Shown piece by piece: positions 31,298 through 59,205 of a stretch of DNA of 64,000 nucleotides; within the stretch, counting starts at the first letter, position 1, and the number at the start of each line of letters is the position of its first letter. Location of the stretch: assembly GCF_017163755.1 (NCBI RefSeq), contig NZ_JAFIWC010000006.1, forward strand, positions 62,001-126,000, in the 5' to 3' direction. A program made the position numbers and the translations under genes. The notes under the pieces were generated by a model. The model had not been told where the DNA came from. It saw nothing but the letters and a program-made list of their open reading frames with translations, and ran no database searches. This DNA comes from Xanthomonas sp. GTDB taxonomy: Bacteria > Pseudomonadota > Gammaproteobacteria > Xanthomonadales > Xanthomonadaceae.

Positions 31298-32080
31298 CTA
31301 GAACGTCCCCGGATACGCCCCGCCGTCGATCAGCAGGTTCTGCCCGCTGATGTAGCCGGCGTGCGCGCTGCACAGGAATGCGCAGGCCGCGCCGAACTCA
31401 TCCGGCGTGCCGAAGCGGCCGGCCGGGATGCGGGCGCGCTTGTGTTCGCGCACCGCCTCCACGCTGCTGCCGCTGCTGCGCACGGCCTGGGCGAAGTTGC
31501 TGCGCAGCCGGTCGGTGTCGAACTGGCCGGGCAGCAGGTTGTTGATGGTGACGTTGCGCGCAACGGTGCTGCGCGCCAGGCCGGCGACGAAGCCGGTCAA
31601 TCCCGCACGCGCGCCGTTGGACAGTCCCAGGCCGTCGATCGGCGCCTTCACCGCGCTGGAGGTGATGTTGACGATGCGGCCGAAGCCGCGTTCCAGCATC
31701 GCATCGACGCTGGCGCGGATCAGCGCGATCGGCGCCAGCATGTTGGCGTCGAGCGCGCGCAGCCAGTCCTCGCGTTCCCAGTCGCGGAAATCGCCCACCG
31801 GCGGACCGCCGGCGTTGTTGATCAGGATGTCCACCTGCGGGCAGGCGGCCAGCGCCGCGGCGCGTCCGGCCTCGCTGGCGATGTCGGCGGCCACCGCGAC
31901 GACGGCGCCGGCGCCCGGCAGCGCACGCAGTTCGGCGGCGGCCTGCTCGAGCGTGGCTTGCCCGCGCGCCACGATCACCACGTTGACGCCCTCGCGCGCC
32001 AGCGCACGCGCGCAGCCCAGCCCCAGGCCCTTGCTTGCGGCGCAGACCAGCGCCCACTTGCCGGCGATGCCCAGATCCAT
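31298..32080 (-). CDS. Short-chain dehydrogenase/reductase family protein with atypical active site
   Basis: A 260-residue Rossmann-fold SDR. The cofactor motif is AASKGLGLG (14-22), ILINNAGGPP follows strand 4 (85-94), and NITSSAVK contains the catalytic-loop serines (141-142). At the position where classical SDRs have the Tyr-x-x-x-Lys pair this protein reads Ser154-Asn-Gly-Ala-Arg158, so the usual catalytic Tyr and Lys are replaced. The rest of the fold, including INNLLPGQFDTDR and the C-terminal YISGQNLLIDGG, is intact. It may be a divergent reductase or a non-classical SDR. The start at 32080 has GAGGAG upstream. Proximity to bioC suggests, but does not show, a role near pimelate metabolism. 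Confidence 0.85.
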   Translation of the reverse strand: MDLGIAGKWALVCAASKGLGLGCARALAREGVNVVIVARGQATLEQAAAELRALPGAGAVVAVAADIASEAGRAAALAACPQVDILINNAGGPPVGDFRDWEREDWLRALDANMLAPIALIRASVDAMLERGFGRIVNITSSAVKAPIDGLGLSNGARAGLTGFVAGLARSTVARNVTINNLLPGQFDTDRLRSNFAQAVRSSGSSVEAVREHKRARIPAGRFGTPDEFGAACAFLCSAHAGYISGQNLLIDGGAYPGTF

Positions 32081-32380
32081 GCGTTCGCTCCTCGCGTCGA
32101 AACCGCGATGATCGTGCATCGCCGCCGTGGCGGCCAGCGCGGCGCCGCGCTGGGGAGCGGGTACGGCCGGGTGGGTGCTCGCTCGCCGGGAGCGTATCGG
32201 CGAGAAGCGCGGCGGCATCCTTGCTGCCGGTTGGCCGGCTATCCGCACGCCATTGGCGAACCGTGGCCGAAGACACGGAACGACGGGAATCCAGAAGCCC
32301 GGCGAATCATGCGGATCGTCGTTCGCTGGCGCTTTGTACCGACGCAGGGGCTACAACGCTGAAGGCGCAGGCGGCCGTTG
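32081..32380. other. Gene-poor stretch upstream of the SDR gene
   Basis: Three hundred bases between the SDR start and the stop of the next minus-strand gene. Only one short, low-confidence minus-strand frame (32239-32424) is present and it resembles the recurrent non-coding-like 'SGFPSFR' translations common in Xanthomonas intergenic DNA. The SDR promoter should lie here; no clear -35/-10 pair or terminator was recognised. Confidence 0.4.
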
Positions 32381-33140: not shown

Positions 33141-34079
33141 TCAGTCGATTCGCAGACACCGCGTCCAGTTCGAGCCGTCGAACTCCATGACGTCCTTGGG
33201 CCCGATGGACCACATGATCCCGTCGGCGGCGCTCAGGTGATAGCAGGTCTGCGGCGCGTCGTCGCCGAAATCGACGGGGATGAGCTTGCCGTCCTCGAGT
33301 CGATAGACGAGGTGGCTGGAAGACACGTAAAGCTGCCCGTCGAACACTTCCATGCCCCAGAGGTCTTCCCGCGTGCTTTCGTGCTCGATCGCTTCCCATC
33401 GGTCATCGCGCCCCCGAAGCAGGGTGCCGACCTGGCCGCAGGCATAGGCGAAGCCGTCCGGTGCGCAGCGGACCTTGTACAGCGCCAGCTCGGTCGGGCT
33501 CTTCTGCTGAGAGAAGACGGAGCCGTCGTACTTCCAGATCTCGCCTTCCCAGCCGACCGTATAGATTTCCTGCTCGCTGAACCCGTCGATCGACTCGAAA
33601 CTCGTGTCGGTGATCGGCGTGTCGCCGACCTGGGCGCTGTGGTCGATGCATCGCCACTGATCTTCGCCATCGCGGACATAGGCCTGACGGCAGGTCCCCA
33701 CGGCATAGGCACGGCCCTTGGCGATACCGCGTACTTCACGAAGCGGGCCGCGTCTGTTCGGGTCTACGCCGCAGCTTGCGATGGGCGCTTCTTCCTTTAT
33801 GACGCCGCCGCCACTGGTTCGTACCGACCCATTGGAGCCCAGCACCAGGTAGCGTTCGGCCGGCACATGGCAGACCGTCCCGGAACAGGCAAGCCATGGC
33901 ACTGTGCCGGCGCCCCAGATTTCGCGATCTAGAGTGATCAAAATTGAATCCGTATAACCTTCGCTGGTAGCGGCGTCGTGCGTGGCGATCAAATAACTGA
34001 GGTCCGAGTAGCGAACGCTTCCAGTAGTTATGCTGAGTCCGCTGAATCGCGAGTCTTGAGGGTTCAAATTCTTCTCCAT
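33141..34079 (-). CDS. Tandem beta-propeller paralogue A (last of eight)
   Basis: A 312-residue protein, one of eight tandem paralogues. About seven repeats of roughly 40 residues alternate strands with a GxIW/YDGS-type turn (IYTVGWEGEIWKYDGS; GFAYACGQVGTLLRGRDDRW; LYVSSSHLVYRLEDG; MWSIGPKDVMEFDGSNW), a pattern fitting a beta-propeller. There is no signal peptide or membrane helix, so it should be cytoplasmic. Nine cysteines are conserved through the set. The N-terminus (MEKNLNPQDS) differs from copies D-H: the ATG at 34079 overlaps a GGAGAA sequence that would serve as ribosome site for an in-frame TTG at 34067, which aligns with the ATG of copies D-H and would give 308 residues. Function unknown; an orphan-immunity role is inferred. 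Confidence 0.85.
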   Translation of the reverse strand: MEKNLNPQDSRFSGLSITTGSVRYSDLSYLIATHDAATSEGYTDSILITLDREIWGAGTVPWLACSGTVCHVPAERYLVLGSNGSVRTSGGGVIKEEAPIASCGVDPNRRGPLREVRGIAKGRAYAVGTCRQAYVRDGEDQWRCIDHSAQVGDTPITDTSFESIDGFSEQEIYTVGWEGEIWKYDGSVFSQQKSPTELALYKVRCAPDGFAYACGQVGTLLRGRDDRWEAIEHESTREDLWGMEVFDGQLYVSSSHLVYRLEDGKLIPVDFGDDAPQTCYHLSAADGIMWSIGPKDVMEFDGSNWTRCLRID

Positions 34080-34082
34080 GTG

Positions 34083-34255
34083 TTAGTGGCCTACGCACTG
34101 GTCAACATTTTGCAGCTTGCCGCGCTGGTAGTTGCCGGTCTTGGATGCGTCGTTGTTGATGTGTTTGGTCGTCGCCAGAGTTTGGGCAAGATAAGATGAG
34201 AATGCCTTGGCAATGCGAAGAACTCGCGTAGAAGCGACCAGCCGAAGTGGTCGGG
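34083..34255 (-). pseudogene. Decayed 3' end of an ancestral upstream gene, spacer between copies B and A
   Basis: The minus-strand frame immediately after the stop of copy B reads a plausible protein tail (IAKAFSSYLAQTLATTKHIN, then NDASKTGNYQRGKL) and stops just before the start of copy A. It aligns with the tail between copies H and G (KEQQINTDAS...). No start codon or 5' part remains. It is interpreted as a fossil of the gene that once preceded each propeller gene. Confidence 0.55.
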
Positions 34256-35182
34256 TCAGTCGATTTGCAGGCAACGCTTCCAGCTGGAGCCATCGAACTC
34301 CATGACGTCCTTGGGCCCGATGGACCACATGACCCCGTCGGCGGCGCTCAGGTGATAGCAGGTCCGCGGCGCGTCGTCGCCGAAATCGACGGGGATGAGC
34401 TTGCCGTCCTCGAGCCGATAGACGAGATGGCTGGAAGCCACGTACACCTGCCCGTCGAACACTTCCATGCCCCAGAGATCTTCCCGCGTGCTTTCATGTT
34501 CGATCACTTCCCATTGATCATCGCGTCCGCGCAGCAACGTGCCGAGTTGGCCGCAGGCATAGGCGAAGCCATCTGGGGCACAGCGGACCTTGTACAGCGC
34601 CAGCTTGGTGGGGCTCTTCTGTTGGGTGAAGACGGAGCCGTCGTATTTCCAGATCTCGCCTTCCCAACCGACCGTGTAGATTTCCTGCTCGCTGAACCCA
34701 TCGATGGATTCGAAGCTGGTGTCGGTGATCGGCGTGTCGCCGACCTGGGCGCTGTGGTCGATGCATCGCCACTGGTCTTCGCCATCGCGGACGTAGGCTT
34801 GGCGGCAGGTGCCCACGGCGTAGGCGCGGCCTTTGCCGATGCCACGGATTTCGCGAAGCGGGCCGCGCTTCTTCGGGTCTACGCCGCAGCTTGCGATGGG
34901 CGCCTCTTCCTTTACCACGCCGCCGCCACTGGCTTCTAACGATCCATCGATGCCCAACGTCAGAGAACGTTCGGCCGGCACATGGCAGACCGTCCCGGAA
35001 CAGGCAAGCCATGGCACTGTGCCGGCGTACCAGGTTCCACGATACAGCGTGTAAAGAATCGAATCTATGTAACCTTCACTGATGGCGTCGTCGTGCGTAG
35101 CAATCAAGTAGCTGAGGTCTGAATGACGAACGACGCCAGTACTGATGCTGAGGCCGCTAAATACTGGGTCTCGAGGGTCCAA
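34256..35182 (-). CDS. Tandem beta-propeller paralogue B, altered start
   Basis: A 308-residue propeller paralogue if translated from the TTG at 35182, which aligns exactly with the ATG start of copies D-H (reads as MDPRDPVFSGLS). An upstream ATG homologous to that of copies A and C exists at 35194, but a one-base insertion (a TTT where copy C has TT) puts it out of frame. GGAAA lies seven bases before the TTG and could serve as ribosome site. The body is intact to the usual ending CLQID. It differs from its neighbours mainly in the N-terminal third (SILYTLYRGTWYAGT). It may be poorly translated; otherwise functionally equivalent to the rest. Confidence 0.75.
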   Translation of the reverse strand: MDPRDPVFSGLSISTGVVRHSDLSYLIATHDDAISEGYIDSILYTLYRGTWYAGTVPWLACSGTVCHVPAERSLTLGIDGSLEASGGGVVKEEAPIASCGVDPKKRGPLREIRGIGKGRAYAVGTCRQAYVRDGEDQWRCIDHSAQVGDTPITDTSFESIDGFSEQEIYTVGWEGEIWKYDGSVFTQQKSPTKLALYKVRCAPDGFAYACGQLGTLLRGRDDQWEVIEHESTREDLWGMEVFDGQVYVASSHLVYRLEDGKLIPVDFGDDAPRTCYHLSAADGVMWSIGPKDVMEFDGSSWKRCLQID

Positions 35183-35223
35183 AGTTGATTTCCATTTTGT
35201 GAATAGATTGATGAGGCAGCCGG

Positions 35224-36159
35224 TCAGCCGATTCGCACGCACCGCTTCCAGTTGGAGCCATCGAACTCCATGACGTCCTTCGGCCCGATGGACCACATGA
35301 CCCCATCGGCCGCGCTCAGGTGATAGCAAGTCTGCGGCGCGTCGTCGCCGAAATCGACGGGGATGAGCTTGCCGCCTTCGAGTCGATAGACGAGGTGGCT
35401 GGAAGACACGTACAGCTGCCCGTCGAACACTTCCATGCCCCACAGGTCTTCCCGCGTGCTTCCATGTTCGATCGCTTCCCATTGATCACCGCGTCCGCGC
35501 AGCAAAGTGCCGAGCTGGCCGCAGGCATAGGCGAAGCCATCTGGGGCACAGCGGACCTTGTACAGCGCCAGCTTGGTGGGGCTCTTCTGTTGGGTGAAGA
35601 CGGAGCCGTCGTACTTCCAGATCTCGCCTTCCCAGCCGACGGTGTAGATTTCCTGCTCGCTGAATCCGTCGATCGACTCGAAACTCGTGTCGGTGATCGG
35701 CGTGTCGCCGACCTGGGCGCTGTGGTCGATGCATCGCCACTGATTTTCGCCATCGCGGACGTAGGCTTGGCGGCAGGTGCCTACGGCGTAGGCGCGGCCT
35801 TTGGCGACACCGCGGATTTCACGAAGCGGACCGCGCTTCTTCGGATCGACGCCGCAGCCCGCGATGGCCTCTACGTTTACCGTGCCGCCGCCACTGGCTT
35901 CTACTGATCCATCGATGCCCAGCATCAGGTAGCGCTCGGCCGGTACATGGCAGACCGTTCCGGAGCAGGCAAGCCACGGCACTGTGTCAGCGCCCCAGAT
36001 TTCACGATCTAGAGTGATCAGAATTGAATCTGTGTAACCTTCGCTTGTAGCGGCGTCGTGCGTGGCAATCAAATAGCTGAGGTCTGAGTAGCGAACGACG
36101 CCAGTACTAATGCTGAGGCCGCTGAATCCTGGGGCATGAGGGTCCAAGTTGACTTCCAT
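35224..36159 (-). CDS. Tandem beta-propeller paralogue C
   Basis: A 311-residue member of the array. The ATG at 36159 gives MEVNLDPHAP; a TTG four codons later aligns with the start of copies D-H, and a TTG at 36174 would extend it. As in copies A and B, no separate Shine-Dalgarno precedes the ATG. The N-terminal third carries the 'IATHDAATSEGYTDSIL' type together with a one-residue-shorter 'GGGTVNVEAIAGCG' segment. The C-terminal two thirds match the array consensus. Only 27 bases separate it from copy D and 41 from copy B, so these three are probably co-transcribed without remnants of an upstream gene in between. Confidence 0.85.
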   Translation of the reverse strand: MEVNLDPHAPGFSGLSISTGVVRYSDLSYLIATHDAATSEGYTDSILITLDREIWGADTVPWLACSGTVCHVPAERYLMLGIDGSVEASGGGTVNVEAIAGCGVDPKKRGPLREIRGVAKGRAYAVGTCRQAYVRDGENQWRCIDHSAQVGDTPITDTSFESIDGFSEQEIYTVGWEGEIWKYDGSVFTQQKSPTKLALYKVRCAPDGFAYACGQLGTLLRGRGDQWEAIEHGSTREDLWGMEVFDGQLYVSSSHLVYRLEGGKLIPVDFGDDAPQTCYHLSAADGVMWSIGPKDVMEFDGSNWKRCVRIG

Positions 36160-36186
36160 TCGTGAGGGAATCAAAGGGATGGCCGA

Positions 36187-37113
36187 TCAGTCGATTTGCA
36201 GACACCGCTTCCATTTCGAGCCGTCGAACTCCATGACGTCCTTGGGCCCGATGGACCACATGATCCCGTCGGCCGCACTTAGGTGATAGCAAGTACTTGG
36301 TGCATCGTCGCCGAAATCGACGGGCGTGAGCTTGCCGTCCTCAAGGCGATAGACGAAATGGGTGGAAGAGACGTACAACTGTCCGTCGAACACCTCCATG
36401 CCCCAGAGATCTTCCCGGGTGCTTTCGTGCTCGATCACTTCCCATTGGTCATCGCGCCCCCGGAGCAAAGTGCCGAGCTGGCCGCAGGCATAGGCGAACC
36501 CATCCGGCGCGCAGCGAACCTTGTACAGAGACAGGGTGGTCGGGCTCTTCTGCTGGGTGAAGACCGAGCCGTCGTACTTCCAGATCTCGCCGTCCCAGCC
36601 GACCGTGTAGATTTCCTGCTCGCTGAACCCGTCGATGGATTCGAAGCTGGTGTAATAGATAGGGGTATCACCGACTTGAGCACTCTGATCAATGCATCTC
36701 CACTGATCTTCGCCATCACGAACATAGGCCTGTCGGCACGTTCCCACGGCGTAGGCCCGGCCTTTGGCGATGCCGCGTATTTCGCGAAGCGGGCCACGTT
36801 TCTTGGGATCTACACCGCAGCTTGCGATGGGTGCCTCTTCCTTTGTACCGCCGCCGCCACTGGCTTCTATCGATCCATCTGTGCCCAACGTCAGAGAGCG
36901 TTCGGCCGGCACATGGCAGACCGTTCCGGAACAGGCAAGCCATTTCACCGTACCGGCACCCCAGTTTCCACGGTACAGGGTGAACAATATCGACCCTGTG
37001 TAACCCTCGGCGATAGAAAGGTCGTTCGTGGTAATCAAATAGCTGAGGTCAGAGTAGCGAACGGTTCCAGTAGCAATGCTTAGTCCGCTGAATCGTCGGT
37101 CATGAGTGTCCAT
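36187..37113 (-). CDS. Tandem beta-propeller paralogue D
   Basis: A 308-residue member and the most diverged in its C-terminal part: DTPIYYTSFE replaces DTPITDTSFE, GWDGEIW replaces GWEGEIW, and TTLSLYKVRC, STHFVYRLEDGKLTPV and APSTCYHL differ from the consensus. The N-terminus is of the 'ITTNDLSIAEGYTGSIL' type with a GGGGTKEEAP segment. AAGGAG lies 13 bases before the ATG at 37113. Being most different, it is a candidate for an older copy or one under different selection. Confidence 0.86.
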   Translation of the reverse strand: MDTHDRRFSGLSIATGTVRYSDLSYLITTNDLSIAEGYTGSILFTLYRGNWGAGTVKWLACSGTVCHVPAERSLTLGTDGSIEASGGGGTKEEAPIASCGVDPKKRGPLREIRGIAKGRAYAVGTCRQAYVRDGEDQWRCIDQSAQVGDTPIYYTSFESIDGFSEQEIYTVGWDGEIWKYDGSVFTQQKSPTTLSLYKVRCAPDGFAYACGQLGTLLRGRDDQWEVIEHESTREDLWGMEVFDGQLYVSSTHFVYRLEDGKLTPVDFGDDAPSTCYHLSAADGIMWSIGPKDVMEFDGSKWKRCLQID

Positions 37114-37134
37114 GTTGGTTTTGTTCTCCTTGCG

Positions 37135-37315
37135 TTAATGATTGGGCGCCAGCGAAAAATTTTCCCACAGCCTTGTTGCGCGATGTGGTTCGCCGAGCCG
37201 GGCGGATTGGATCTGTTGTTCCTTGCCGAAGCGCTCGAGCAAGGATTGAGGAAATATCGCTGGCATCGCGAAGACTCGCGTAGAAGCGCGAAGCAAGGCA
37301 ACCGGAATGGCCGGA
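37135..37315 (-). pseudogene. Decayed 3' end of the ancestral upstream gene, spacer between copies E and D
   Basis: After the stop of copy E one frame reads LLERFGKEQQIQSARLGE and a second, shifted frame reads ANHIAQQGCGKIF. Together they match the single-frame tail between H and G (RFGKEQQINTD ... VDHIAQQGREKML), so a small deletion has broken the frame. This is direct evidence of decay rather than a functional gene. Confidence 0.65.
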
Positions 37316-38239
37316 TCAGTCGATCTGCAGGCACCGCTTCCAGTTGGAGCCGTCGAACTCCATGACGTCCTTGGGCCCGATGGACCACATGATCCCGTCG
37401 GCCGCGCTCAGGTGATAGCAGGTCTGCGGCGCGTCGTCGCCGAAATCGACGGGGATGAGCTTGCCGTCCTCGAGTCGATAGACGAGGTGGCTGGAAGACA
37501 CGTACAGCTGCCCATCGAACACTTCCATGCCCCAGAGGTCTTCTTTGGTGCTTCCGTGCTCGATCGCTTCCCATTGGTCATCGCGTCCCCGAAGCAACGT
37601 GCCGAGCTGGCCGCAGGCATAGGCGAAACCGTCCGGTGCGCAGCGGACCTTGTACAGCGCCAGTTCGGTCGGGCTCTTCTGCTGGATGAAGACGGAGCCG
37701 TCGTACTTCCAGATTTCGCCTTCCCAGCCGACCGTGTAGATTTCCTGCTCGCTGAACCCGTCGATGGATTCGAAGCTGGTGTCGGTGATCGGCGTGTCGC
37801 CGACCTGGGCGCTGTGGTCGATGCATCGCCACTGATCTTCGCCATCGCGGACATAGGCCTGCCGGCAGGTGCCCACGGCATAGGCGCGCCCTTTGGCGAT
37901 GCCGCGTACTTCACGAAGAGGACCGCGCTTTCTCGGGTCTGCTCCGCAATTGGCGATGGCCTCTGCTTTTCTAGTGCCGCCGCCACTGGCTTCCACCGAT
38001 CCATCGATGCCCAGCATCAGGTGGCGCTCGGCCGGCACATGGCAGACCGTTCCGGAGCAGGCGAGCCATGGCACTGTGCCGGCATACATGGTTCCACGAT
38101 ACAGAGTGAACAATATCGAATCTGCGTAACCCTCGCTGCTAGCGGCGTCATGCGTTGCAATCAAATAGCTGAGGTCTGAGTGGCGAACGGTTCCAGTAGC
38201 AATGCTGAGTCCACTGAGTCGTGGGTCTCGAGGGTCCAT
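37316..38239 (-). CDS. Tandem beta-propeller paralogue E
   Basis: A 307-residue member with a clean AAGGAG ribosome site six bases before the ATG at 38239. The N-terminal third combines 'IATHDAASSEGYADSIL' with a 'FTLYRGTMYAGT' segment and a distinctive GGGTRKAEAIANCGADPRKRG stretch, another mosaic combination. The C-terminal two thirds are close to identical to copies F and G, including the STKEDLWGMEVF variant shared only by E, F and G, which points to recent duplication or gene conversion among these three. Confidence 0.86.
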   Translation of the reverse strand: MDPRDPRLSGLSIATGTVRHSDLSYLIATHDAASSEGYADSILFTLYRGTMYAGTVPWLACSGTVCHVPAERHLMLGIDGSVEASGGGTRKAEAIANCGADPRKRGPLREVRGIAKGRAYAVGTCRQAYVRDGEDQWRCIDHSAQVGDTPITDTSFESIDGFSEQEIYTVGWEGEIWKYDGSVFIQQKSPTELALYKVRCAPDGFAYACGQLGTLLRGRDDQWEAIEHGSTKEDLWGMEVFDGQLYVSSSHLVYRLEDGKLIPVDFGDDAPQTCYHLSAADGIMWSIGPKDVMEFDGSNWKRCLQID

Positions 38240-38450
38240 GCTGCTCTCCTTGTGTGAGCAATAACGGGCGGGTGCGCGAGCGAACTTTCGGCCCCAGCAT
38301 TCCGCGCTGACGTGGATCGCCGATCACGGCATGATGGTATCGGTATCCTTGCCAGGGTCTTGGGCAAGTTGAGTGGAGAATGATGCCTGCGGTGAATCGG
38401 CGAAGAACTCGCGCGCAGCATCGCAGAGCAGGTCGGGTCGGCGGGCTGGG
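38240..38450 (-). pseudogene. Decayed 3' end of the ancestral upstream gene, spacer between copies F and E
   Basis: The frame after copy F reads DAAREFFADSPQASFSTQLA, then QDPGKDTDTIMP and a stop. Further downstream the DNA (GGCGATCCACGTCAGCGCGG) still aligns with the DHI-encoding block of the other spacers but in another frame. Protein-like amino-acid use and shared order indicate a fossil of the same gene; several frameshifts are present. Confidence 0.5.
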
Positions 38451-39374
38451 TCAGTCGATTCGCAGACACCGCTTCCAGTTCGATCCGTCGAACTCCATGA
38501 CGTCCTTGGGCCCGATGGACCACATGATCCCGTCAGCGGCGCTCAGGTGATAGCAGGTCTGCGGCGCGTCGTCGCCGAAATCGACGGGGATGAGCTTGCC
38601 GTCCTCGAGTCGATGGACGAGGTGGCTGGAAGACACGTACAGCTGCCCATCGAACACTTCCATGCCCCAGAGGTCTTCTTTGGTGCTTCCGTGCTCGATC
38701 GCTTCCCATTGGTCATCGCGTCCCCGAAGCAAAGTGCCGAGCTGGCCGCAGGCATAGGCGAAGCCGTCCGGTGCGCAGCGGACCTTGTACAGCGCCAGTT
38801 CGGTCGGGCTCTTCTGCTGGGTGAAGACGGAGCCGTCGTATTTCCAGATCTCGCCTTCCCAACCGACCGTGTAGATTTCCTGCTCGCTGAACCCGTCGAT
38901 CGACTCGAAACTCGTGTCGGTGATCGGCGTGTCGCCGACCTGGGCGCTGTGGTCGATGCATCGCCATTGGTCTTCGCCATCGCGGACATAGGCCTGACGG
39001 CAGGTGCCCACGGCGTAGGCGCGGCCCTTGGCGATGCCACGGATTTCGCGAAGCGGGCCGCGCTTCTTCGGGTCGACGCCGCAGCCCGCGATGGCCTCTA
39101 CGTTTACCGTGCCGCCGCCACTGGCTTCTACTGATCCATCGGTGCCCAACATCAGGTAGCGTTCAACCGGCACATGGCAGACCGTTCCGGAGCAGGCAAG
39201 CCATGGCACTGTATCGGCATACCAGGTCCCACGATCCAGATTGAACAGTATCGAACCTGTGTAGCCCTCGCTGATGGAGAGATCGTTCGTGGTAATCAAA
39301 TAGCTGAGGTCTGAGTAGCGAACGGTTCCAGTGGCAATGCTGAGTCCGCTGAATCCTGGGTCTAGGGGGTCCAT
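38451..39374 (-). CDS. Tandem beta-propeller paralogue F
   Basis: A 307-residue member. The N-terminus is 'ITTNDLSISEGYTGSIL' with FNLDRGTWYADTVPW and the GGGTVNVEAIAGCG segment shared with copy C, so the two halves of the variable third come from different lineages. The C-terminal part matches E and G, with Y-to-H in SHLVHRLEDG. AGGA lies upstream of the ATG at 39374. Cytoplasmic, propeller-like as the others; function unknown. Confidence 0.86.
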   Translation of the reverse strand: MDPLDPGFSGLSIATGTVRYSDLSYLITTNDLSISEGYTGSILFNLDRGTWYADTVPWLACSGTVCHVPVERYLMLGTDGSVEASGGGTVNVEAIAGCGVDPKKRGPLREIRGIAKGRAYAVGTCRQAYVRDGEDQWRCIDHSAQVGDTPITDTSFESIDGFSEQEIYTVGWEGEIWKYDGSVFTQQKSPTELALYKVRCAPDGFAYACGQLGTLLRGRDDQWEAIEHGSTKEDLWGMEVFDGQLYVSSSHLVHRLEDGKLIPVDFGDDAPQTCYHLSAADGIMWSIGPKDVMEFDGSNWKRCLRID

Positions 39375-39411
39375 GTTGGTTTCCTGATGTGAGTAGTGAC
39401 GCCCGGGCGCG

Positions 39412-39581
39412 CTAGCGAAACCTCGGTCGCGGCCTTCGTGCGCTGATGTGGTCGCCGATCACGGACATGTTGGCGATCCGTCTTTGCCGGGGGTCTTGGG
39501 CAAACTGAGACCGGCATTGATGTCCTGCGGTAACTCGGTGCGCCTGCATGGGCAGCGCGGAGCGGCCGGTCGGTGGGGGGG
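39412..39581 (-). pseudogene. Decayed 3' end of the ancestral upstream gene, spacer between copies G and F
   Basis: The frame ends MSVIGDHISARRPRPRFR with a TAG at 39412-39414; the same TAG position is preserved upstream of copy H. The preceding part (SQFAQDPRQRR) matches the copy F/E spacer out of frame. It is a further decayed copy of the gene that once lay upstream of the propeller gene. Confidence 0.5.
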
Positions 39582-40508
39582 TCAGTCGATCTGCAGGCAC
39601 CGCTTCCAGTTCGAGCCGTCGAACTCCATGACGTCCTTGGGCCCGATGGACCACATGATCCCGTCAGCGGCGCTCAGGTGATAGCAGGTCTGCGGCGCGT
39701 CGTCGCCGAAATCGACGGGGATGAGCTTGCCGTCCTCGAATCGATAGACGAGGTGGCTGGAAGACACGTACAGCTGCCCGTCGAACACTTCCATGCCCCA
39801 GAGGTCTTCTTTGGTGCTTCCGTGCTCGATCGCTTCCCATTGGTCATCGCGTCCCCGAAGCAACGTGCCGAGCTGGCCGCAGGCATAGGCGAAGCCGTCC
39901 GGTGCGCAGCGGACCTTGTACAGCGCCAGTTCGGTCGGGCTCTTCTGCTGGGTGAAGACGGAGCCGTCGTATTTCCAGATCTCGCCTTCCCAACCGACCG
40001 TGTAGATTTCCTGCTCGCTGAACCCGTCGATGGATTCGAAGCTGGTGTCGGTGATCGGCGTGTCGCCGACCTGGGCGCTGTGGTCGATGCATCGCCATTG
40101 GTCTTCGCCATCGCGGACGTAGGCCTGGCGACAGGTGCCCACGGCGTAGGCGCGACCTTTGGCGACACCGCGGATTTCACGAAGCGGGCCGCGCTTTTCC
40201 GGGTCGATGCCGCAGCTTGCGATGGTTGCTTCTTCCTTTATCGCGCCGCCGCCGCTGGCTCGTATCGATCCATTGGCGCCCAGCACCAGGTAACGTTCGG
40301 CGGGCACGTGGCAGACCGTTCCGGAGCATGCAAGCCATGGCACTGTGCCGGCGCCCCAGTTGCCACGGTACAAAGTGAACAGTATCGATCCTGTGTGACC
40401 CTCGCTGATGGAGAGGTCGTTCGTGGTGATCAAATAGCTGAGGTCCGAATAGCGAACGACGCCAGTGGCAATGCTGAGTCCGCTGAATCGTCGGTCTTGA
40501 GTGTCCAT
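39582..40508 (-). CDS. Tandem beta-propeller paralogue G
   Basis: A 308-residue member. The N-terminus (MDTQDRRFSGLS) is closest to copy D, the second variable segment (YLVLGANGSIRASGGGAIKE) is closest to copy A, and the C-terminal part is the E/F type, so it is a clear three-way mosaic. The ATG at 40508 follows AGGAAGAG at a somewhat long spacing. All nine conserved cysteines and the repeat pattern are intact. Confidence 0.86.
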   Translation of the reverse strand: MDTQDRRFSGLSIATGVVRYSDLSYLITTNDLSISEGHTGSILFTLYRGNWGAGTVPWLACSGTVCHVPAERYLVLGANGSIRASGGGAIKEEATIASCGIDPEKRGPLREIRGVAKGRAYAVGTCRQAYVRDGEDQWRCIDHSAQVGDTPITDTSFESIDGFSEQEIYTVGWEGEIWKYDGSVFTQQKSPTELALYKVRCAPDGFAYACGQLGTLLRGRDDQWEAIEHGSTKEDLWGMEVFDGQLYVSSSHLVYRFEDGKLIPVDFGDDAPQTCYHLSAADGIMWSIGPKDVMEFDGSNWKRCLQID

Positions 40509-40513
40509 GTGAT

Positions 40514-40638
40514 CTACTCTTCCTGTGTTAACGGTCTGACGTCAGCGAGCATTTTCTCACGGCCCTGCTGCGCGATGTGGTCCACCGGTGGGGATGCGTC
40601 GGTGTTGATCTGTTGTTCCTTGCCAAAGCGCTTGATGG
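40514..40638 (-). pseudogene. Best-preserved 3' fragment of the ancestral upstream gene, spacer between copies H and G
   Basis: Directly after the stop of copy H a single open frame reads TIKRFGKEQQINTDASPPV, then DHIAQQGREKMLADV and RPLTQEE, stopping at 40514 a few bases before copy G. Composition is that of a normal soluble protein tail and the frame is unbroken for 41 codons. It has no start. It is the reference for recognising the other spacer fossils. Confidence 0.6.
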
Positions 40639-41565
40639 TCAGTCGATTTGCAGGCACCGCTTCCAGTTCGAGCCGTCGAACTCCATGACGTCCTTGGGCC
40701 CGATGGACCACATGATCCCGTCGGCCGCGCTCAGGTGATAGCAGGTCTGCGGCGTATCGTCGCCGAAATCGACGGGGATGAGCTTGCCGCCTTCGAGTCG
40801 ATAGACGAGGTGGCTGGAAGACACGTACAGCTGCCCGTCGAACACTTCCATGCCCCAGAGGTCTTCCCGCGTGCTTTCATGTTCGATCACTTCCCATCGA
40901 TCGTCGCGCCCCCGCAGCAACGTGCCGAGCTGGCCGCAGGCATAGGCGAAGCCGTCCGGGGCGCAGCGGACCTTGTACAGCGCCAGCTTGGTCGGGCTCT
41001 TCTGCTGGGTGAAGACGGAGCCGTCGTATTTCCAGATCTCGCCTTCCCAGCCGACCGTGTAGATTTCCTGTTCGCTGAATCCGTCGATGGATTCGAAGCT
41101 GGTGTCGGTGATCGGCGTGCCGCCGACCTGGGCGCTGTGGTCGATGCATCGCCACTGGCCTTCGCCATCGCGGACGTAGGCTTGGCGGCAGGTGCCCACG
41201 GCGTAGGCGCGGCCCTTGGCGATGCCACGGATTTCGCGAAGCGGGCCGCGCTTCTTCGGGTCGACGCCGCAGCTTGCGATGGGCGCTTCTTCCTTTATGA
41301 CGCCGCCGCCAACGGCTCGTACGGACCCATGGGTGCCCAGCGTCAGGTAACGTTCGGCCGGCACATGGCACACGGTTCCGGAACAGGCAAGCCACGGCAC
41401 CGTGCCGGCACCCCAAGTGCCACGATCCAGGCCGAACAGTATCGACCCTGTGTAACCCTCGCTGATGGAGAGATCGTTCGTGGTGATCAAATAGCCGAGG
41501 TCCGAATAGCGAACGACGCCAGTAGCAATGCTGAGCCCGCTGAATCGTGGGTCTCGGGGGTCCAT
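40639..41565 (-). CDS. Tandem beta-propeller paralogue H (first of eight)
   Basis: The promoter-proximal member, 308 residues, with an AAGGAG ribosome site six bases before the ATG at 41565. Repeats at about 111-145, 156-195, 196-232, 233-272 and 273-308 are clearest, plus weaker ones before residue 110. Conserved cysteines are C61, C66, C99, C126, C140, C201, C210, C275 and C304. The variable third is 'ITTNDLSISEGYTGSIL' with FGLDRGTWGAGT and LGTHGSVRAVGGGVIKE. It has no signal peptide. As first gene of the block it sets the orientation of the array away from bioH. Confidence 0.87.
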   Translation of the reverse strand: MDPRDPRFSGLSIATGVVRYSDLGYLITTNDLSISEGYTGSILFGLDRGTWGAGTVPWLACSGTVCHVPAERYLTLGTHGSVRAVGGGVIKEEAPIASCGVDPKKRGPLREIRGIAKGRAYAVGTCRQAYVRDGEGQWRCIDHSAQVGGTPITDTSFESIDGFSEQEIYTVGWEGEIWKYDGSVFTQQKSPTKLALYKVRCAPDGFAYACGQLGTLLRGRDDRWEVIEHESTREDLWGMEVFDGQLYVSSSHLVYRLEGGKLIPVDFGDDTPQTCYHLSAADGIMWSIGPKDVMEFDGSNWKRCLQID

Positions 41566-42110: not shown

Positions 42111-42872
42111 CTAAGGCAACGCGGCGAGGAACTCGCGCAACGCGGTGGCCACTTCGTCGGCATGGCCCAGGAAAGGCGCGTGTCCGCCGCCGGCGACGAT
42201 CCGCAGCTGCGAGTGCGGCGCCAATGCGGCGGCGGCCTGCAGGCCGGCCGCCGGCACCAGCCGGTCGCGCTGGCCGCCCAGCCACAGGCTGGGCACGCGC
42301 AGCGTCGGCAGCGCGCGGCGCAGGTCGGTGCGTTCCAGCAGCGCCAAGCCGTCCTGCAGCGCGCGCGCATCGGGTTCGCCGCGTGCGGTGAGGGTTTCGC
42401 GCAGCGTGCGCAGTTCGGCACGCGCATGCGCCGAGCCAAGCGTATCCAGCGCGAGGAAACGGTCCAGCGTGCCGCGGTAGTCCTCGCCAAGATCGTGGCC
42501 GAACTGCGCGAACACCTGCGGTTCCACCGCATGCGGCCAATCGCTGCCGCGCACGAAGCGCGGCGTCGCCGCGATCATCGCCAGGCCGCGTACCTGCGGT
42601 TGGCTCGCCGCCGCATGCAGCGCGAACAGCCCACCCAGCGACCAACCCAGCCACGCGGCCGGCGGCGTCGCCGCGGCGATCGCGTTGACCACGTGCGGCA
42701 GCGCCAGCGGCGTGTCGTCGTCGCGGCTGCGGCCATGGCCGGGCAGGTCCACCAGGTGCAGCCGGTACTGCGCCGCCAGACGTTCGACCAGCGGCGCGAA
42801 GATGCCGCCGTGCAATGCCCAGCCGTGCAGCAGGACCAGGTCGGGGCCTTGCCCCAGGGTGTCTATGTGCAT
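42111..42872 (-). CDS. bioH: Pimeloyl-ACP methyl ester carboxylesterase BioH
   Basis: A 253-residue alpha/beta hydrolase that releases pimeloyl-ACP from its methyl ester, ending the BioC/BioH pimelate cycle. The oxyanion block is LLHGWALHGGIF (14-25), the nucleophile is Ser78 in GWSLGG, VDLPGHGRS matches the family, and the C-terminal catalytic His is in VAGGGHAPFLGHADE. Length matches BioH (about 255). It follows bioF and a small ORF on the same strand, with 52 bases to the latter. Its usual partner bioC is separated from it by the propeller array. Confidence 0.93.
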   Translation of the reverse strand: MHIDTLGQGPDLVLLHGWALHGGIFAPLVERLAAQYRLHLVDLPGHGRSRDDDTPLALPHVVNAIAAATPPAAWLGWSLGGLFALHAAASQPQVRGLAMIAATPRFVRGSDWPHAVEPQVFAQFGHDLGEDYRGTLDRFLALDTLGSAHARAELRTLRETLTARGEPDARALQDGLALLERTDLRRALPTLRVPSLWLGGQRDRLVPAAGLQAAAALAPHSQLRIVAGGGHAPFLGHADEVATALREFLAALP

Positions 42873-45725: not shown

Positions 45726-46604
45726 GTGGGTGTCGTCGTTGCGGGCGTCGTGGTTTTCCTGCTGGTGGTGTCCATCGCCTGCTGGCTGCTGCTGTTTCCG
45801 GAGGCGCTGGAGCGGGTGCAGGCCTGGTTCGGCACCCGGCTGCGCGGCCTGCGGCAGGGCGCGGGACGGGTCGGCCAGCGCGTGAGCCGCAGCGCCGGCG
45901 GGGTCGGCGAGGGGGTGCGCGGCGGGCTCGGCGGGGTGACGGATTTCCTGCGGCGTCATCGCTGGGTCATCCTCTGCACGCTGCTGTTGGTGCTGGTGCC
46001 GCCGATCGCGATCCTTCTGGTCCGGCAGAACGTGGTGCTGGAGGATTTCCGCGCCGAGGACATGAGCGAGTCCAGCAGCATGGTGGCGCAGCTGCTGCGC
46101 GGCGAGCGCCTGGTGCCGCCGCCGGCGCCGCCGCCGGAGGTGTTCACCACCGAGGAGATCCGCCGCACCCGCCCGGAGATCGTCACCGCCGACCGGCGCT
46201 GGGAGAGCATCGACGCCGACCTGCAGCAGCGCGTGCTCGCGATCTACGAGGTCATGCGGCGCCAGTACGGCTACGAGATGGTGCTGGTGGAGGGCTACCG
46301 CAGCCCGGAACGCCAGGCCGAGCTGATGGGCGGCGGCCGCGCCACCCGCGCCGGCGCCTGGCAGAGCTGCCACCAGTACGGCCTGGCGGTGGACAGCGCG
46401 CCGCTGCGCGACGGCAAGCTGCAGTGGGACATGGGCGACCCGTGGACCAAGCGCGCCTACTTCCTCTACGGCGAACTGGCCCAGCAGGCCGGGCTGGAGT
46501 GGGGCGGCAACTGGCGCAGCATCAAGGACTACGTCCACGTGGAGAAGCTGGAGGCCTGCCGCAGCGCCCGCGCCGCCAAGCGCGCCGAACTGGCCGGAGG
46601 GTGA
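45726..46604 (+). CDS. tagX: M15 (VanY-type) peptidase, TagX-like T6SS accessory
   Basis: A 292-residue membrane-anchored peptidoglycan peptidase. Two N-terminal helices (about 3-24 and 80-100) flank a Gly/Arg-rich segment, and the C-terminal half is a zinc-dependent M15 domain with VEGYRSPERQAELM, the metal-binding block SCHQYGLAVDSA (His216, Asp222) and a terminal His in VHVEK (about 270). TagX of Acinetobacter is a VanY-type L,D-endopeptidase needed to assemble the T6SS through peptidoglycan, and this gene directly precedes PAAR and tssM, so the same role is inferred. The GTG start at 45726 has AGGGGG five bases upstream. Confidence 0.75.
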   Translation: MGVVVAGVVVFLLVVSIACWLLLFPEALERVQAWFGTRLRGLRQGAGRVGQRVSRSAGGVGEGVRGGLGGVTDFLRRHRWVILCTLLLVLVPPIAILLVRQNVVLEDFRAEDMSESSSMVAQLLRGERLVPPPAPPPEVFTTEEIRRTRPEIVTADRRWESIDADLQQRVLAIYEVMRRQYGYEMVLVEGYRSPERQAELMGGGRATRAGAWQSCHQYGLAVDSAPLRDGKLQWDMGDPWTKRAYFLYGELAQQAGLEWGGNWRSIKDYVHVEKLEACRSARAAKRAELAGG

Positions 46605-46713
46605 GCCGGCAATGAACTCCTGCTATCTTCTCCCCACGGCGGCGACCGCGCCGCCACGGGGACGAAGGGCGGCGACGGACCGGCCCCGGGGAACGACCAT
46701 GGAGGCAGTACTG

Positions 46714-46974
46714 ATGTCACGACCTTTCATTCTGGTGGGCGACAAGCTCGATCACGGCGGCAGTGTGGTCGTCGGTTCGGCCGAGACCGACGTGGACGGC
46801 AAGCCGGTGGCGAGGATCGGCGACAAGGCCGTGTGCAGCGTGCACGGCCCGACCGAGATCGCCAGCGGCGACGCCACGGTGATGATCGACGGCAAGCCGG
46901 TGGCGCGCCACGGGGACAAGACCGCATGTGGCGCTACACTGATCTCCACGCAGGGAACGACCGGCATCGGATGA
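46714..46974 (+). CDS. PAAR domain protein (T6SS spike tip)
   Basis: An 86-residue single-domain PAAR protein that caps the VgrG spike. The repeated VVGSAETDVDGKPVARIGDK / ATVMIDGKPVARHGDK pattern with His residues (HGG, VHGP, RHGD) fits the zinc-coordinating cone. No C-terminal effector extension is present, so this is a structural PAAR. The ATG at 46714 has GGAGG eight bases upstream and is preferred to the in-frame ATG at 46699. It lies between tagX-like and the tssM upstream gene. Confidence 0.92.
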   Translation: MSRPFILVGDKLDHGGSVVVGSAETDVDGKPVARIGDKAVCSVHGPTEIASGDATVMIDGKPVARHGDKTACGATLISTQGTTGIG

Positions 46975-47033
46975 CGAGGCAAGCTGCTTCGGCTCCCGTC
47001 GATGCCTAATCCACTCATGGAGCGAGAACGCTA

Positions 47034-48524
47034 ATGTCCGGAATCCTTCGGAACGTGTTGTCCGCCGCCGCGATGTTCGGCGTGGCATGGGGCGGCTCGA
47101 TCTTCTATTGGCGCAGCAGCGGCACCACGCCCAGCGGCATGGAGATGCTGACCTACCTGGGCATCCTGCCCGCCGGCCTGCTCGGCGGCAGCTGGCTGCT
47201 GCGCGACATGGGCCGGCGCGCCCTGTCGCGTGCCGCCGACGCCGCCGACAGCGCCGCGGCCAAGGCCGCCGAGCGCAGCGGTTCCAAGGCGGCCGCGGCC
47301 ACGTCGGCGTCGCCCGAACAGCCGGTGGCGCCGGCCGCCGGCTCCGCGCCGGCCCTGCTCGCCGGCGCGGTGAACCTGGCCCTGGGGCAGCAGCCGCAGG
47401 CTATCCTCGCGCTGCGCGGCAACCTGCCGCGGCCCGGCCTGCACAAGCAGTTCCGCGACCAGGATGGGCTGCCGGTGTTCGCGGTGCAGGTGCCGGAGTT
47501 GGACGCCGAGGACGTGGCCGACGCGATGCTCGCCTCGGCGGCGCTGCCGTCCGACCCCGGCGAACGATTGCTGGAGCACCACAAGCGCGCCATCGCCCTG
47601 CTCGAGCCGGTCGCCGACGCGCTGTTGCTGGAGGCCGCGCAGGCGCTGCCGGCGTTGCCCGAGGCGCAGGACCGCGTGGTGGCCGGGTTGCGCCACCGCC
47701 TCGAGGCGCAGGTGCACAACGTGCTGCGCATCGAGCTGTGGCTGCCCGCGGACTGGCCGGCCTCGCTGCGCCAGGCGCTGGGCGACTGGACCCTGGCGCG
47801 TGCCGGCGAGCAAGGCCTGGATCCGCGCCGCTTCGGCGTGGAAGTGATCCCGATGGAGGGCGCCGACGACGCATGGCCGCGGCTGGAGCGGCTGGCGCGC
47901 GGGGCCGATGCGCCGGCCGACGGCTGGCAGCTGATCCTGGCCTGCCACTCGTCCATCGGCCAGGCGCAGGTCGAGCAGATGCTCGAAAGCGGGCGGCTGA
48001 TGACTCGCCGCGCGCCCGACGGCCGCGTGCCCGGCGAAGGCGCCAGCGGCATCCTGCTGGCGAGCGGGCCCGGCGCCGCCGGCGACGTGGTGCTGCATCC
48101 GCTGCAGCGCATCGCCCTGCCGCTGGATCGCGGCGCCAAGGCCGGCGCGCGGCTGACCGGCGAGCTGGCGACGCAGACCCTGGAGCGCGCCGCGCTGGCG
48201 CCCGCGCAGGTGGACCTGGTGCTCAGCGACGCCGACCACCGCGCCACGCTGTCGGCCGAGGCCGCCGCCGCCGCGCTGATCGCCTGCCCCGACCTGGACA
48301 CCGCCGCGCAATGCCTGCCGCTGGCGACCGCCACCGGCGACCTGGCCGCGGTGCAGCCGCTGGCGCTGCTCGCGCTCGCCCATGCCCATGTCGCCGCCGG
48401 GCAGCAAGCGGCGTTGGTGCTGGGCGTGGACCAGGCAGGTTCGCGCATCGCCACCGTCGTCAGTCCCCGTCCTTCCTCCCAGCCAGTTACCGACGCCGGC
48501 GCCATGCCGGCGTCCGCCGCCTAA
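47034..48524 (+). CDS. T6SS-linked protein of unknown function, 496 aa
   Basis: Unrecognised protein encoded 15 bases before tssM and evidently part of the T6SS operon. Two N-terminal hydrophobic segments (about 8-27 and 38-58) are followed by an Ala-rich linker and a large soluble domain. The C-terminal half (about 300-480) has repeated LALAHAHVAAGQQAALVLG and QVDLVLSDADHRATL motifs that resemble the thiolase/ketoacyl-synthase fold, but without the catalytic Cys-His-His set, so any such fold would be non-catalytic. It might be an inner-membrane scaffold acting with TssM. Fold assignment is a guess; a structure prediction would decide. Confidence 0.75.
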   Translation: MSGILRNVLSAAAMFGVAWGGSIFYWRSSGTTPSGMEMLTYLGILPAGLLGGSWLLRDMGRRALSRAADAADSAAAKAAERSGSKAAAATSASPEQPVAPAAGSAPALLAGAVNLALGQQPQAILALRGNLPRPGLHKQFRDQDGLPVFAVQVPELDAEDVADAMLASAALPSDPGERLLEHHKRAIALLEPVADALLLEAAQALPALPEAQDRVVAGLRHRLEAQVHNVLRIELWLPADWPASLRQALGDWTLARAGEQGLDPRRFGVEVIPMEGADDAWPRLERLARGADAPADGWQLILACHSSIGQAQVEQMLESGRLMTRRAPDGRVPGEGASGILLASGPGAAGDVVLHPLQRIALPLDRGAKAGARLTGELATQTLERAALAPAQVDLVLSDADHRATLSAEAAAAALIACPDLDTAAQCLPLATATGDLAAVQPLALLALAHAHVAAGQQAALVLGVDQAGSRIATVVSPRPSSQPVTDAGAMPASAA

Positions 48525-48539
48525 CCGGAACAGCGCCCG

Positions 48540-51500
48540 ATGTTTAGCAATCTCAGGTATTACCTTCGCGACTACCGCCTCTGGATGGTCCTCGGCTTGC
48601 TCGCCGCCGGCGCGGTCGCCTACTTCGGCGCCGAAGGATTGCGCGAGATCGGCGTGTGGGCGGCGGTCGCGCTGGCGGTGTGCCTGCTGATATGGCTCAT
48701 GGTGTGGATCGTGCGCCGGATCATGGCCCGCCGCGCGGCGCGCAGCCTGGACGCGATGGTGCAGGGCGAGGCCGACCGCGCGGTCGCCGCCTCGCAACCG
48801 GCCACCCGCGCCGACACCGAGGCGCTGCGCTCGCGCATGTTCGAGGCGGTCAAGGCGATCAAGTCCTCGCGCCTGGGCGTGCTCAAGGGCAAGGCGGCGC
48901 TGTACGAACTGCCGTGGTACGTGATCATCGGCAATCCGGCCGCCGGCAAGAGCACCGCGATCCTCAATTCGGGCCTGCAGTTCCCGTTCGAGGACAACCG
49001 CGGCAACGTGGTCCAGGGCATCGGCGGCACCCGCAACTGCGACTGGTACTTCACCACCACCGGCATCGTGCTCGACACCGCCGGCCGCTACTCGGTCAGC
49101 GTCGAAGACCGCCTGGAATGGCTCACCTTCCTCGGCCTGCTGAAGAAGCACCGGCCGCGCGCGCCGATCAACGGCGTCATCATCGCCGTCAGCATCGCCG
49201 AGCTGTCCGGCAGCAAGCCCGAGTTCGCGATCGAACTGGCCAAGAACCTGCGCCAGCGCGTGCAGGAAATCACCGAGCGCCTGGAAGTGTTCGCGCCGGT
49301 GTACGTGGTGTTCACCAAGGCCGACCTGATCGCCGGCTTCTCCGAGTTCTTCCACAATCTGGATCCGGCCGAGCGCGAGAACGTGTGGGGCGCGACCCTG
49401 CCCTACGATCCGACCGCTGAGACCGACGCGCTGGCCGCGTTCGACACCCATTTCGACGAGCTGGCCGAAGGCGTCAAGGAAATGAGCCTGGCGCACATGG
49501 CGATGCAGCGCGGGCGCCAGGTGTCGCCCGGCCTGCTGACCCTGCCGCTGGAGTTCGTCGGCATCAAGCCGGCGCTGCGCACCTTCATCGCCACGCTGTT
49601 CGAAGAGAACCCCTACCAGTTCAAGCCGGTGTTCCGCGGCTTCTACTTCAGCAGCGCGCTGCAGGAAGGCCATTCCGTGCACCACGCCTCCGAGCGGGTG
49701 AGCCGCCAGTTCGCGCTGCAGGCGCGCGCGCAGTCGGGCGAGGCGGCGCCGTCGGGGCAGACCGCGTACTTCCTGAAGGATCTGTTCCGCAAGGTCATCT
49801 TCGCCGACAAGCAACTCGTACGGCAGTATTCCAGTCCGCACCAGAACCGCCTGCGCTACGGCGTGTTCCTCGGCGCGGTCGGCGTGCTGGCGCTGGCGCT
49901 GGGCCTGTGGACCTGGTCGTACACCACCAACGTGCAGCTGGTGAACAACGCCACCAAGGATCTGGACCAGGCCGTGCGCGTGCAGGCCAACCGGGTCGAC
50001 CTGAAATCGCGCATCGACGCGCTGCTGCTGCTGCAGGACCGCCTGGAGCAGCTGGATCGCTACAAGCAGAAGGGCGGCATCACCACCGGGTTGGGCCTGT
50101 ACCAGGGCGACAACATCCGCAAGAAGCTGTTGGCCGAGTACTACCACGGCATGCGCCAGGTGATGCTCGAGCCGACCACCGCGAGCCTGGAATCGTTCCT
50201 TTCGCAGGTGGTCAGCGAGCGCGACCGGCTCGGCAAGCCGGCCGGCCCGCAACAGGCCGCGCAGCAGGACAGCGTGCTGTACCAGGACGCGTCGCCGACC
50301 GACACCAACGACGCCTACAACGCGCTCAAGACCTACCTGATGCTGGGCAACCGCAAGTACGTGGAGAACGCGCATCTGGCGCAGCAGCTGACCCTGTTCT
50401 GGCGCGGCTGGCTGGACGGCAACCGCGGCCAGATGACCCGCGAGGAGATGACCCGCGCGGCCGAGAAGCTGATGACGTTCTACGTCGCCCACGCCGACGA
50501 TCCGCAGTGGCCGCAGGTGCAGACCAAGGTCACCCTGGTCAACGACAGCCGCGAGGCGCTGACCCGGGTGATGAAGGGCCAGCCGGCGATGCAGCGCGTG
50601 TTCGCGCAGATCAAGGCGCGCGCGGCGGCGCGCTTCCCGACGGTGACGGTCAACTCGCTGATCGGCGAGGAAACCAACAGCGACGCGATCACCGGCAGCT
50701 ACGCCATTTCCGGCGCGTTCTCGCGCGAGGCATGGGACGAATACGTCAAGGACGCGATCAAGGACGCGGCCACCACGCAGCTCAGCAACACCGACTGGGT
50801 GCTCGACACCACCGAGCAGAGCGACCTGTCGCTGGCCGGCAGCCCCGAGCACATCGCGCGCGAGCTGGTGACCTTGTACAAGCAGGAATACGCGCAGGAA
50901 TGGCGCAAGTTCATGCAGGGCGTCAGCGTCGCGCCGTTCCAGGGTTTCGACCAGGCGCTGTCGCGGATGAACCGCATCGGCGACCCGGCCAATTCGCCGC
51001 TGCGCAAGCTGCTGGAGAAGATCAACGAGCAGACCATCTGGGACAACCCGATGGCCGAGGCCTTGTCGAAGAAGGCCTCCGGCGGGTTCGTCGCCTGGTT
51101 CCAGCGGGTGATCCTGCGCCGTGATCCGGCCGACGCCGGCAAGGCCGCGCAGCAGCCGGTCGGCCCGATCGGGAAGACCTTCGAGGGCTTGGCGCGGTTG
51201 ATGACCAAGCGCAAGGACGAGCCGGCGATCATCGATGCGTACTTCGAGACGCTGGCCAAGCTGCGCACGCGCATGAACGCGATCAAGAACCAGGGCCAGG
51301 TCGGCGTCGGCGCGCGCAAGCTGATGCAGGACACCTTCAGCAACGAAGGCTCCGAGCTCAGCGCCGCGCTGACCCTGGTCGACGAGCAGATGCTGACCGG
51401 ACTGGACGACACCCAGCGCGACGCGATGCGTCCGCTGCTGCTGCGGCCGTTAACCCAGACCTTCGCCTCGCTGGTGCCACCGACCGAGAGCGAGGTCAAC

Positions 51501-53263: not shown

Positions 53264-53265
53264 AC

Positions 53266-54054: not shown

Positions 54055-54103
54055 CCGTCGCACGCCGTCCCCACGGCGTGCGGGACGGCGCGGGCCTGGA
54101 CGC

Positions 54104-56110: not shown

Positions 56111-56248
56111 GCCGACAGCGGGTCCGGCGGTCCGCGGCATGCTGCGGACCGTCATGCGCGTCACGACTTCATCTGCTAAGTTCGCCCCACAGGGGCAGGA
56201 AACTATGTTGACCGGGGGCGGTACGGCCCGGGGGACAGAGGTGTAGCG

Positions 56249-59197: not shown

Positions 59198-59205
59198 GAA
59201 CGCAT

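Follow-up and report, generated by a model that had tools for sequence, protein, structure and literature searches.

Eight tandem beta-propeller genes in Xanthomonas: a likely orphan polyimmunity locus of a Tox-GHH2-linked family

The propeller array

The 64,000-nucleotide stretch of Xanthomonas sp. DNA analysed here (contig NZ_JAFIWC010000006.1, positions 62,001 to 126,000; hereafter the window) carries, at 33141-41565 and adjoining bioH, eight minus-strand paralogues of about 308 amino acids (aa) each. They lie head to tail with intergenic gaps of 27-211 bp and no other gene seen between them (Table 1), as an initial annotation made from the letters alone had described. That annotation had also proposed a role in self-protection, and homology, gene context and a structure model together lead us to infer an immunity function. 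In our view the array is probably a homogeneous polyimmunity locus, orphan and acquired horizontally, of a propeller family that would neutralise Tox-GHH2 toxins of the Tse7 type.

The AlphaFold model of copy 8 was a seven-bladed beta-propeller with four-stranded blades and a predicted local distance difference test (pLDDT) score of 95, which bore out the fold first suggested from the repeats in the sequence. Judged by eye, the copies lacked a signal peptide. No family scored above its cut-off in Pfam, NCBIfam and PADLOC (copies 1, 4 and 8 scanned) or in PHROGs (copies 1 and 8), the best Pfam score of the scanned copies being 14.6 bits vs a cut-off of 27.4; the named housekeeping family that the initial annotation had given as refuting its proposal did not come up in these curated collections. 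Sequence searches of the PDB gave weak matches, mostly to propellers, or nothing meaningful, and a search of a phage collection gave no match. Among the structural matches listed for the copy 8 model, virginiamycin B lyase came first, which would fit an enzyme, for example a streptogramin-lyase-like one. However, many other seven-bladed propellers also scored 25-27, identity was 8-14% in the 50 rows listed, and no histidine was invariant or 90% conserved in the 45-row alignment of the propeller family, while the title of a structure entry terms the H270A lyase catalytically inactive. An enzymatic function thus appears highly improbable.

Pairwise identity among the eight copies was 84-91% at the amino-acid level (mean 88%) and 82-92% at the nucleotide level. 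Nine cysteines were common to all eight copies, as had been noted initially, and six of the nine (61, 66, 140, 201, 210 and 275) were retained in 14/14 outside relatives compared. The guanine-plus-cytosine (GC) content of the array, 60.8%, was lower than that of the left (71.6%) and right (70.5%) flanks, again in line with the initial annotation; individual copies ranged from 58 to 64%, and the homologous gene of Pseudomonas agronomica had 60%. None of the eight copies contained an internal stop codon. Intactness, also claimed at the outset, can be taken as established for seven copies and as likely for copy 2, where an in-frame ATG is missing from the expected position and translation would have to begin at TTG 35182. 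Copy 2 starts 41 bp after the gene that precedes it, and copy 3 starts 27 bp after its own preceding gene when counted from its ATG (39 bp if counted from TTG 36147).

Toxin-linked relatives and the orphan state of the array

We examined 47 loci of relatives, which came from a scan with two peptide patterns in which each species was represented by a single genome. Eight Pseudomonas loci held propellers 72-88% identical to those of the array, with the P. agronomica homologue at 88% and that of PA7 at 72%. Seven of the eight had the propeller immediately after a PAAR-like toxin; in the eighth, that of P. otitidis, the array-like propeller was the second behind the toxin. When ten upstream proteins were searched with Pfam, nine carried both a PAAR-like domain (PF13665) and Tox-GHH2 (PF15635), and one the PAAR-like domain only; the neighbour protein in Caballeronia carried both. 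Hidden Markov models of the toxin, built from the nine PAAR-like/Tox-GHH2 proteins, placed a toxin upstream of the propeller (same strand, domain end <=1.5 kb upstream) in 32/47 loci, or in 23/38 with the nine seed loci removed. Since the sample depends on the two peptide patterns, 32/47 is not to be read as a prevalence.

The annotated Caballeronia cluster runs DUF6484, DUF2169, a 345-aa protein, the PAAR-like toxin, the propeller and TIGR02270, and the genes around the Pseudomonas propellers matched it by size and protein ends when compared by eye. Pfam gave no match to the 345-aa protein, which is presumably thiolase-like, and a VgrG presumably heads the module. In Escherichia coli KE47 an island between cusS and nfrB (L056:11865-15789) begins its row of genes with a Tox-GHH2 piece, followed by two propellers, then a PAAR-like piece and finally another propeller; it had a match in 151/5426 complete E. 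coli genomes, with >=80% of the island present in 147. In P. aeruginosa the gene that follows tse7, PA0100, is given as the matching immunity gene, tsi7 (PMC9846239, PMC10281587), and the place of Tsi7 after Tse7 is matched by that of the propeller behind its toxin (PMC9846239, PMC10281587, PMC11883445).

Several relatives showed further arrangements. At the P. otitidis locus (L070:7745-10903) a divergent propeller, 31% identical to copy 8, came right after the toxin, and the array-like one (74% to copy 8) followed behind the next gene; the two are possibly a cognate and an extra immunity protein. Chryseobacterium luteum carried an array of its own, separate from that of the window, with at least five copies (L069:6038-10766): four reading frames, the first of them reduced to 294 aa, plus a fifth that runs off the end of the contig, with 82-84% identity to copy 8. 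By eye, similar stretches that include a short leader-like reading frame lay ahead of these copies and also ahead of the single propeller copies in C. jejuense and Flavobacterium. In another genome (G065, L036:9551-15651) five propellers with 31-76% identity to copy 8 lay within ~6 kb in a mixed, polyimmunity-like cluster. In yet another (G172, L046:7795-10880) a 685-aa LysM protein directly preceded the propeller; Pfam found only the N-terminal LysM in it, so the remainder may be another toxin type.

The genome to which the window belongs encoded 11 propeller homologues, namely the eight array copies and three others at 32-40% identity. A profile search detected no Tox-GHH2 in this genome, the window included, whereas the same search was positive for P. 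agronomica and PA7. As the toxin was found in neither window nor genome, we class the array as orphan immunity rather than as part of an effector-immunity pair. One PAAR-like relative was present in the genome (E 0.01, L108:1486-2787); judged by eye, it has a different C-terminus with a GHSLGG lipase-like motif and follows a DUF2169-like open reading frame (ORF).

Across Xanthomonadaceae, propellers occurred in 9/198 genomes and Tox-GHH2 in 2/198. Both Tox-GHH2 genomes were among the nine with propellers, with the toxin adjoining the propeller (hypergeometric ~0.002, from a manual calculation). One of these genomes, G160, is 6% contaminated. The count of copies across the genus that had been proposed as a check gave propellers in two of nine genomes: eight copies in the array described here, and a single copy of 88% identity at the same site in G111, which had four more distant homologues besides; no homologue was detected in the other seven. 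Copy number at the site therefore differs between related genomes. Tox-GHH2 was detected in 0/9 genomes of the genus, so that sibling strains as the threat, which the initial annotation had in view in one of its proposed checks, find no support, and the toxins met by the array would rather come from other species. Among 25 genomes of PA7's genus, a strong propeller match and Tox-GHH2 were each confined to PA7 (1/25).

From these observations we propose the following course of events. The family would consist of cognate immunity proteins for PAAR-like/Tox-GHH2 (Tse7-type) DNase effectors injected by the type VI secretion system (T6SS). The host would have gained an immunity gene without its toxin, probably from a Pseudomonas-like source, and the acquired gene would have been kept and amplified between the short-chain dehydrogenase (SDR) gene and bioH. 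The propeller would remain cytoplasmic, encounter the injected Tox-GHH2 nuclease domain, and bind and block it, much as Tde5, another T6SS DNase, is reported to be blocked by direct binding of its immunity proteins (PMC13392607). The carrier would thereby obtain a defence without the weapon, and multiple copies may supply dose, range, or both.

A number of observations weigh against this proposal. The array has no neighbouring toxin, and no toxin stood upstream in 15/47 relatives' loci (one of them, L085, has almost no upstream sequence). These 15 included Chryseobacterium, Flavobacterium, Lysobacter, Xanthomonas and Myxococcus, and among them were the three Bacteroidota loci at 83% identity. 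No Tox-GHH2 was found in 7/9 propeller-bearing Xanthomonadaceae genomes, so some relatives may have other roles, and seven other genomes of PA7's genus gave weak propeller profile matches (E 2e-6 to 1e-3) without Tox-GHH2. The Tox-GHH2 search itself was silent in 14/14 control genomes and worked visibly only in Pseudomonas and in the two Xanthomonadaceae genomes. The toxin-less loci would also fit a propeller that binds proteins in general, has a function in housekeeping or regulation in this bacterial family, and has been co-opted for immunity only at times. Most homologues examined within the bacterial family lay at chromosomal sites without a recognised toxin, and Tdi5b is described as a precedent, being a widespread fold co-opted as immunity (PMC13392607). 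The patchy distribution of the propellers in both family and genus is not what such a function would predict, however, and the closest relatives outside Xanthomonadaceae include the toxin-linked Pseudomonas propellers. On balance we find a role other than immunity unlikely.

The surroundings of the array are given in Table 1. T6SS genes lie 4-20 kb away and serve here as context only. No recombinase was found among the flanking proteins scanned, and a few flanking ORFs carry no assignment. Rfam at gathering scores returned a single match in the window, the small RNA (sRNA) asX1, away from the array.

Table 1. Position of the array copies and of neighbouring features in the window
Feature	Position	Strand	Remark
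Propeller copy 1	33141..34079	-	312 aa, ATG
Propeller copy 2	34256..35182	-	308 aa from TTG
Propeller copy 3	35224..36159	-	ATG 36159; TTG 36174 also open
Propeller copy 4	36187..37113	-	308 aa; its branch exceeds those of the other window copies in the 106-308 tree
Propeller copy 5	37316..38239	-	307 aa
Propeller copy 6	38451..39374	-	307 aa
Propeller copy 7	39582..40508	-	308 aa
Propeller copy 8	40639..41565	-	308 aa; query for searches and structure model
SDR	31298..32119	-	Left flank, outside array; similar gene on same side in G111
bioH	42111..42872	-	Right flank, outside array; bioF also on right side
asX1 sRNA	26971-27084		Xanthomonadaceae type; RF02235, 115 bits
T6SS genes	45726..61874		Context only
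PAAR	46735-46974		Within nearby T6SS genes
TssM/IcmF	48585-52283		Within nearby T6SS genes
TagF	52280-53263		Within nearby T6SS genes
TssA/ImpA_N	54104-55177		Within nearby T6SS genes
VgrG	56249-59197		Within nearby T6SS genes
PGAP1-like lipase	59272-60858		Beside Tli4_C protein
Tli4_C protein	61011-61874		Immunity-like; beside PGAP1-like lipase

Maintenance and mosaic history of the copies

We compared the copies separately over residues 1-105 (blades 1-2) and residues 106-308 (blades 3-7), a split that was picked after the alignment had been seen. The mean ratio of nonsynonymous to synonymous divergence (dN/dS) between window copies was 0.27 for residues 1-105 and 0.08 for residues 106-308, and it was <1 in every region computed; the copies are thus under purifying selection, and the maintenance assumed in the initial annotation holds. 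Mean dS was 0.51 and 0.38 in the two regions, which indicates that the copies are old and kept, and the description of them as nearly identical overstates their likeness. Part of this divergence may predate the arrival of the genes in this genome. A neutral tandem duplication that is heading for decay would agree with the missing ATG of copy 2, but not with these dN/dS values or with eight copies free of stop codons, the probability of the latter under random substitution being ~0.003 at 2% and 5e-7 at 5%. We regard such decay as very improbable.

The two parts of the protein differed in their relationships. Over residues 1-105, identity was 77% within the window vs 76% between window and Pseudomonas; over residues 106-308 it was 94% vs 88%. 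In trees built without PA7, P. otitidis, the Rhodospirillales metagenome-assembled genome and the truncated fifth copy of C. luteum, residues 106-308 placed the window copies and G111 in one group (support 96/96) and the C. luteum copies in another (100/100), with the eight window copies alone forming a weak clade (66/18). With residues 1-105 the window copies were scattered, and their placement in one clade was rejected (approximately unbiased (AU) test, p=0.028); copy 2 grouped with P. frederiksbergensis (96/96), and copy 5 joined P. brassicacearum and a single allele of C. luteum (84/84). These two groupings were in turn rejected for residues 106-308 (p=1.3e-5 and 1.6e-64, respectively). 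For the C. luteum copies the test did not reject a single clade over residues 1-105 (AU p=0.074). Blades 1-2 are therefore mosaic, grouping with Pseudomonas and Chryseobacterium alleles, and blades 3-7 are homogenised within genomes. Runs of shared polymorphism between copies exceeded permutation in 4/28 pairs (global p 0.007-0.022). This is consistent with gene conversion, but the test can give inflated results where a gene is unevenly variable along its length.

The initial annotation had proposed selection for dosage or for variants, and two versions of the immunity reading correspond to these. In the first, the copies are equivalent and supply enough immunity protein against a fast DNase, and the variation in blades 1-2 is incidental. 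In the second, blades 1-2 would act as a module for recognition that undergoes recombination, and the copies would differ in their targets, which would be Tox-GHH2 variants or other nucleases. Among seven Pseudomonas toxin-immunity pairs (PA7 set aside, and the L071 pair left out of the count), no covariation was seen between immunity residues 1-105 and the C-terminus of the toxin (r=0.16, p=0.33); adding the distant PA7 pair gave r=0.65 (p=0.018, n=8). For residues 106-end the correlation with the C-terminus of the toxin was r=0.66 (p=0.006), and that with the PAAR part of the toxin was stronger still (r=0.80), in keeping with shared descent. A toxin-matching repertoire is thus possible but not supported by the seven pairs, and blades 1-2 may recognise something else or be free to vary, or the pairs may be too few.

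The lack of covariation in the seven pairs, together with the strong conservation of blades 3-7 among the copies, agrees with dosage. However, a recent amplification would not give copies as old and diverged as these, nor allele classes shared with other species, and we hold dosage as a tentative explanation at best. For a repertoire speak the diversity of blades 1-2, as great within the window as between window and Pseudomonas, the rejection of a single window clade with the strongly supported placement of copy 2, and the higher dN/dS of this region; against it stand the seven pairs, the values of dN/dS below 1 throughout the computed regions and the post hoc boundary at residue 105. We regard a repertoire as a reasonable possibility short of an even chance. 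A more specific form of it would resemble a receptor with variable and constant parts: allele modules of blades 1-2, shared between phyla, would be shuffled onto a genome-specific, homogenised scaffold of blades 3-7 and give a bacterium that lacks the toxin pre-emptive cover against many Tox-GHH2 DNases, and the C. luteum array would have been built independently. We offer this form as speculation that is somewhat doubtful.

Relation to known immunity systems

The proposal would assign a function to an unannotated propeller family and an immunity family to the Tox-GHH2 DNases. In clusters of T6SS effector C-termini, Tox-GHH2 is reported to be the Pfam domain that occurs most often (PMC11148199). 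Eight natural variants, single-copy relatives and toxin partners all exist, and the locus therefore offers a compact test of what a tandem array is for, dose or range. In the literature covered (titles and abstract openings, and open-licence full texts), we found no description of a propeller immunity family for Tox-GHH2 DNases or of such a mosaic array.

The initial annotation had known of no described system with this organisation, a statement that is not supported. Homogeneous polyimmunity loci were defined in 2012 (PMC3482391), and the array resembles them in its same-strand tandem paralogues, short gaps, absence of a toxin inside and varying copy number; a nearby recombinase gene is reported there for several such loci, though not for all. 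Recombining tandem strings of immunity genes are also on record for EsaG and TipC of the type VII secretion system (T7SS) (PMC9484751), and these too comprise many non-identical tandem genes that are orphan in some strains and recombine via conserved blocks. Unlike the Firmicute T7SS strings, the array belongs to another protein family and is linked to T6SS, and its alleles of blades 1-2 fall into groups that span Xanthomonadaceae, Pseudomonas and Bacteroidota.

With the Tse7-Tsi7 pair (PA0099-PA0100) and VgrG1b module of P. aeruginosa the family shares the slot, a PAAR-like/Tox-GHH2 toxin followed by an immunity gene. PA7 carries its homologue in a Tse7-Tsi7-like slot, and the likeness to Tsi7 of PAO1 described here is one of position; the window differs in having no toxin, no such module and eight copies. 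Tsi1 and X-Tfi XAC2610 are described as propellers and, as proposed here for the array, block an antibacterial toxin (PMC10933484). Those two inhibit peptidoglycan hydrolases, whereas the array family sits behind DNases and, by eye, the eight copies lack a signal peptide. Polyimmunity loci as such are therefore already known, and what the array would add is a propeller family for the Tox-GHH2 DNase class, carried in a mosaic array.

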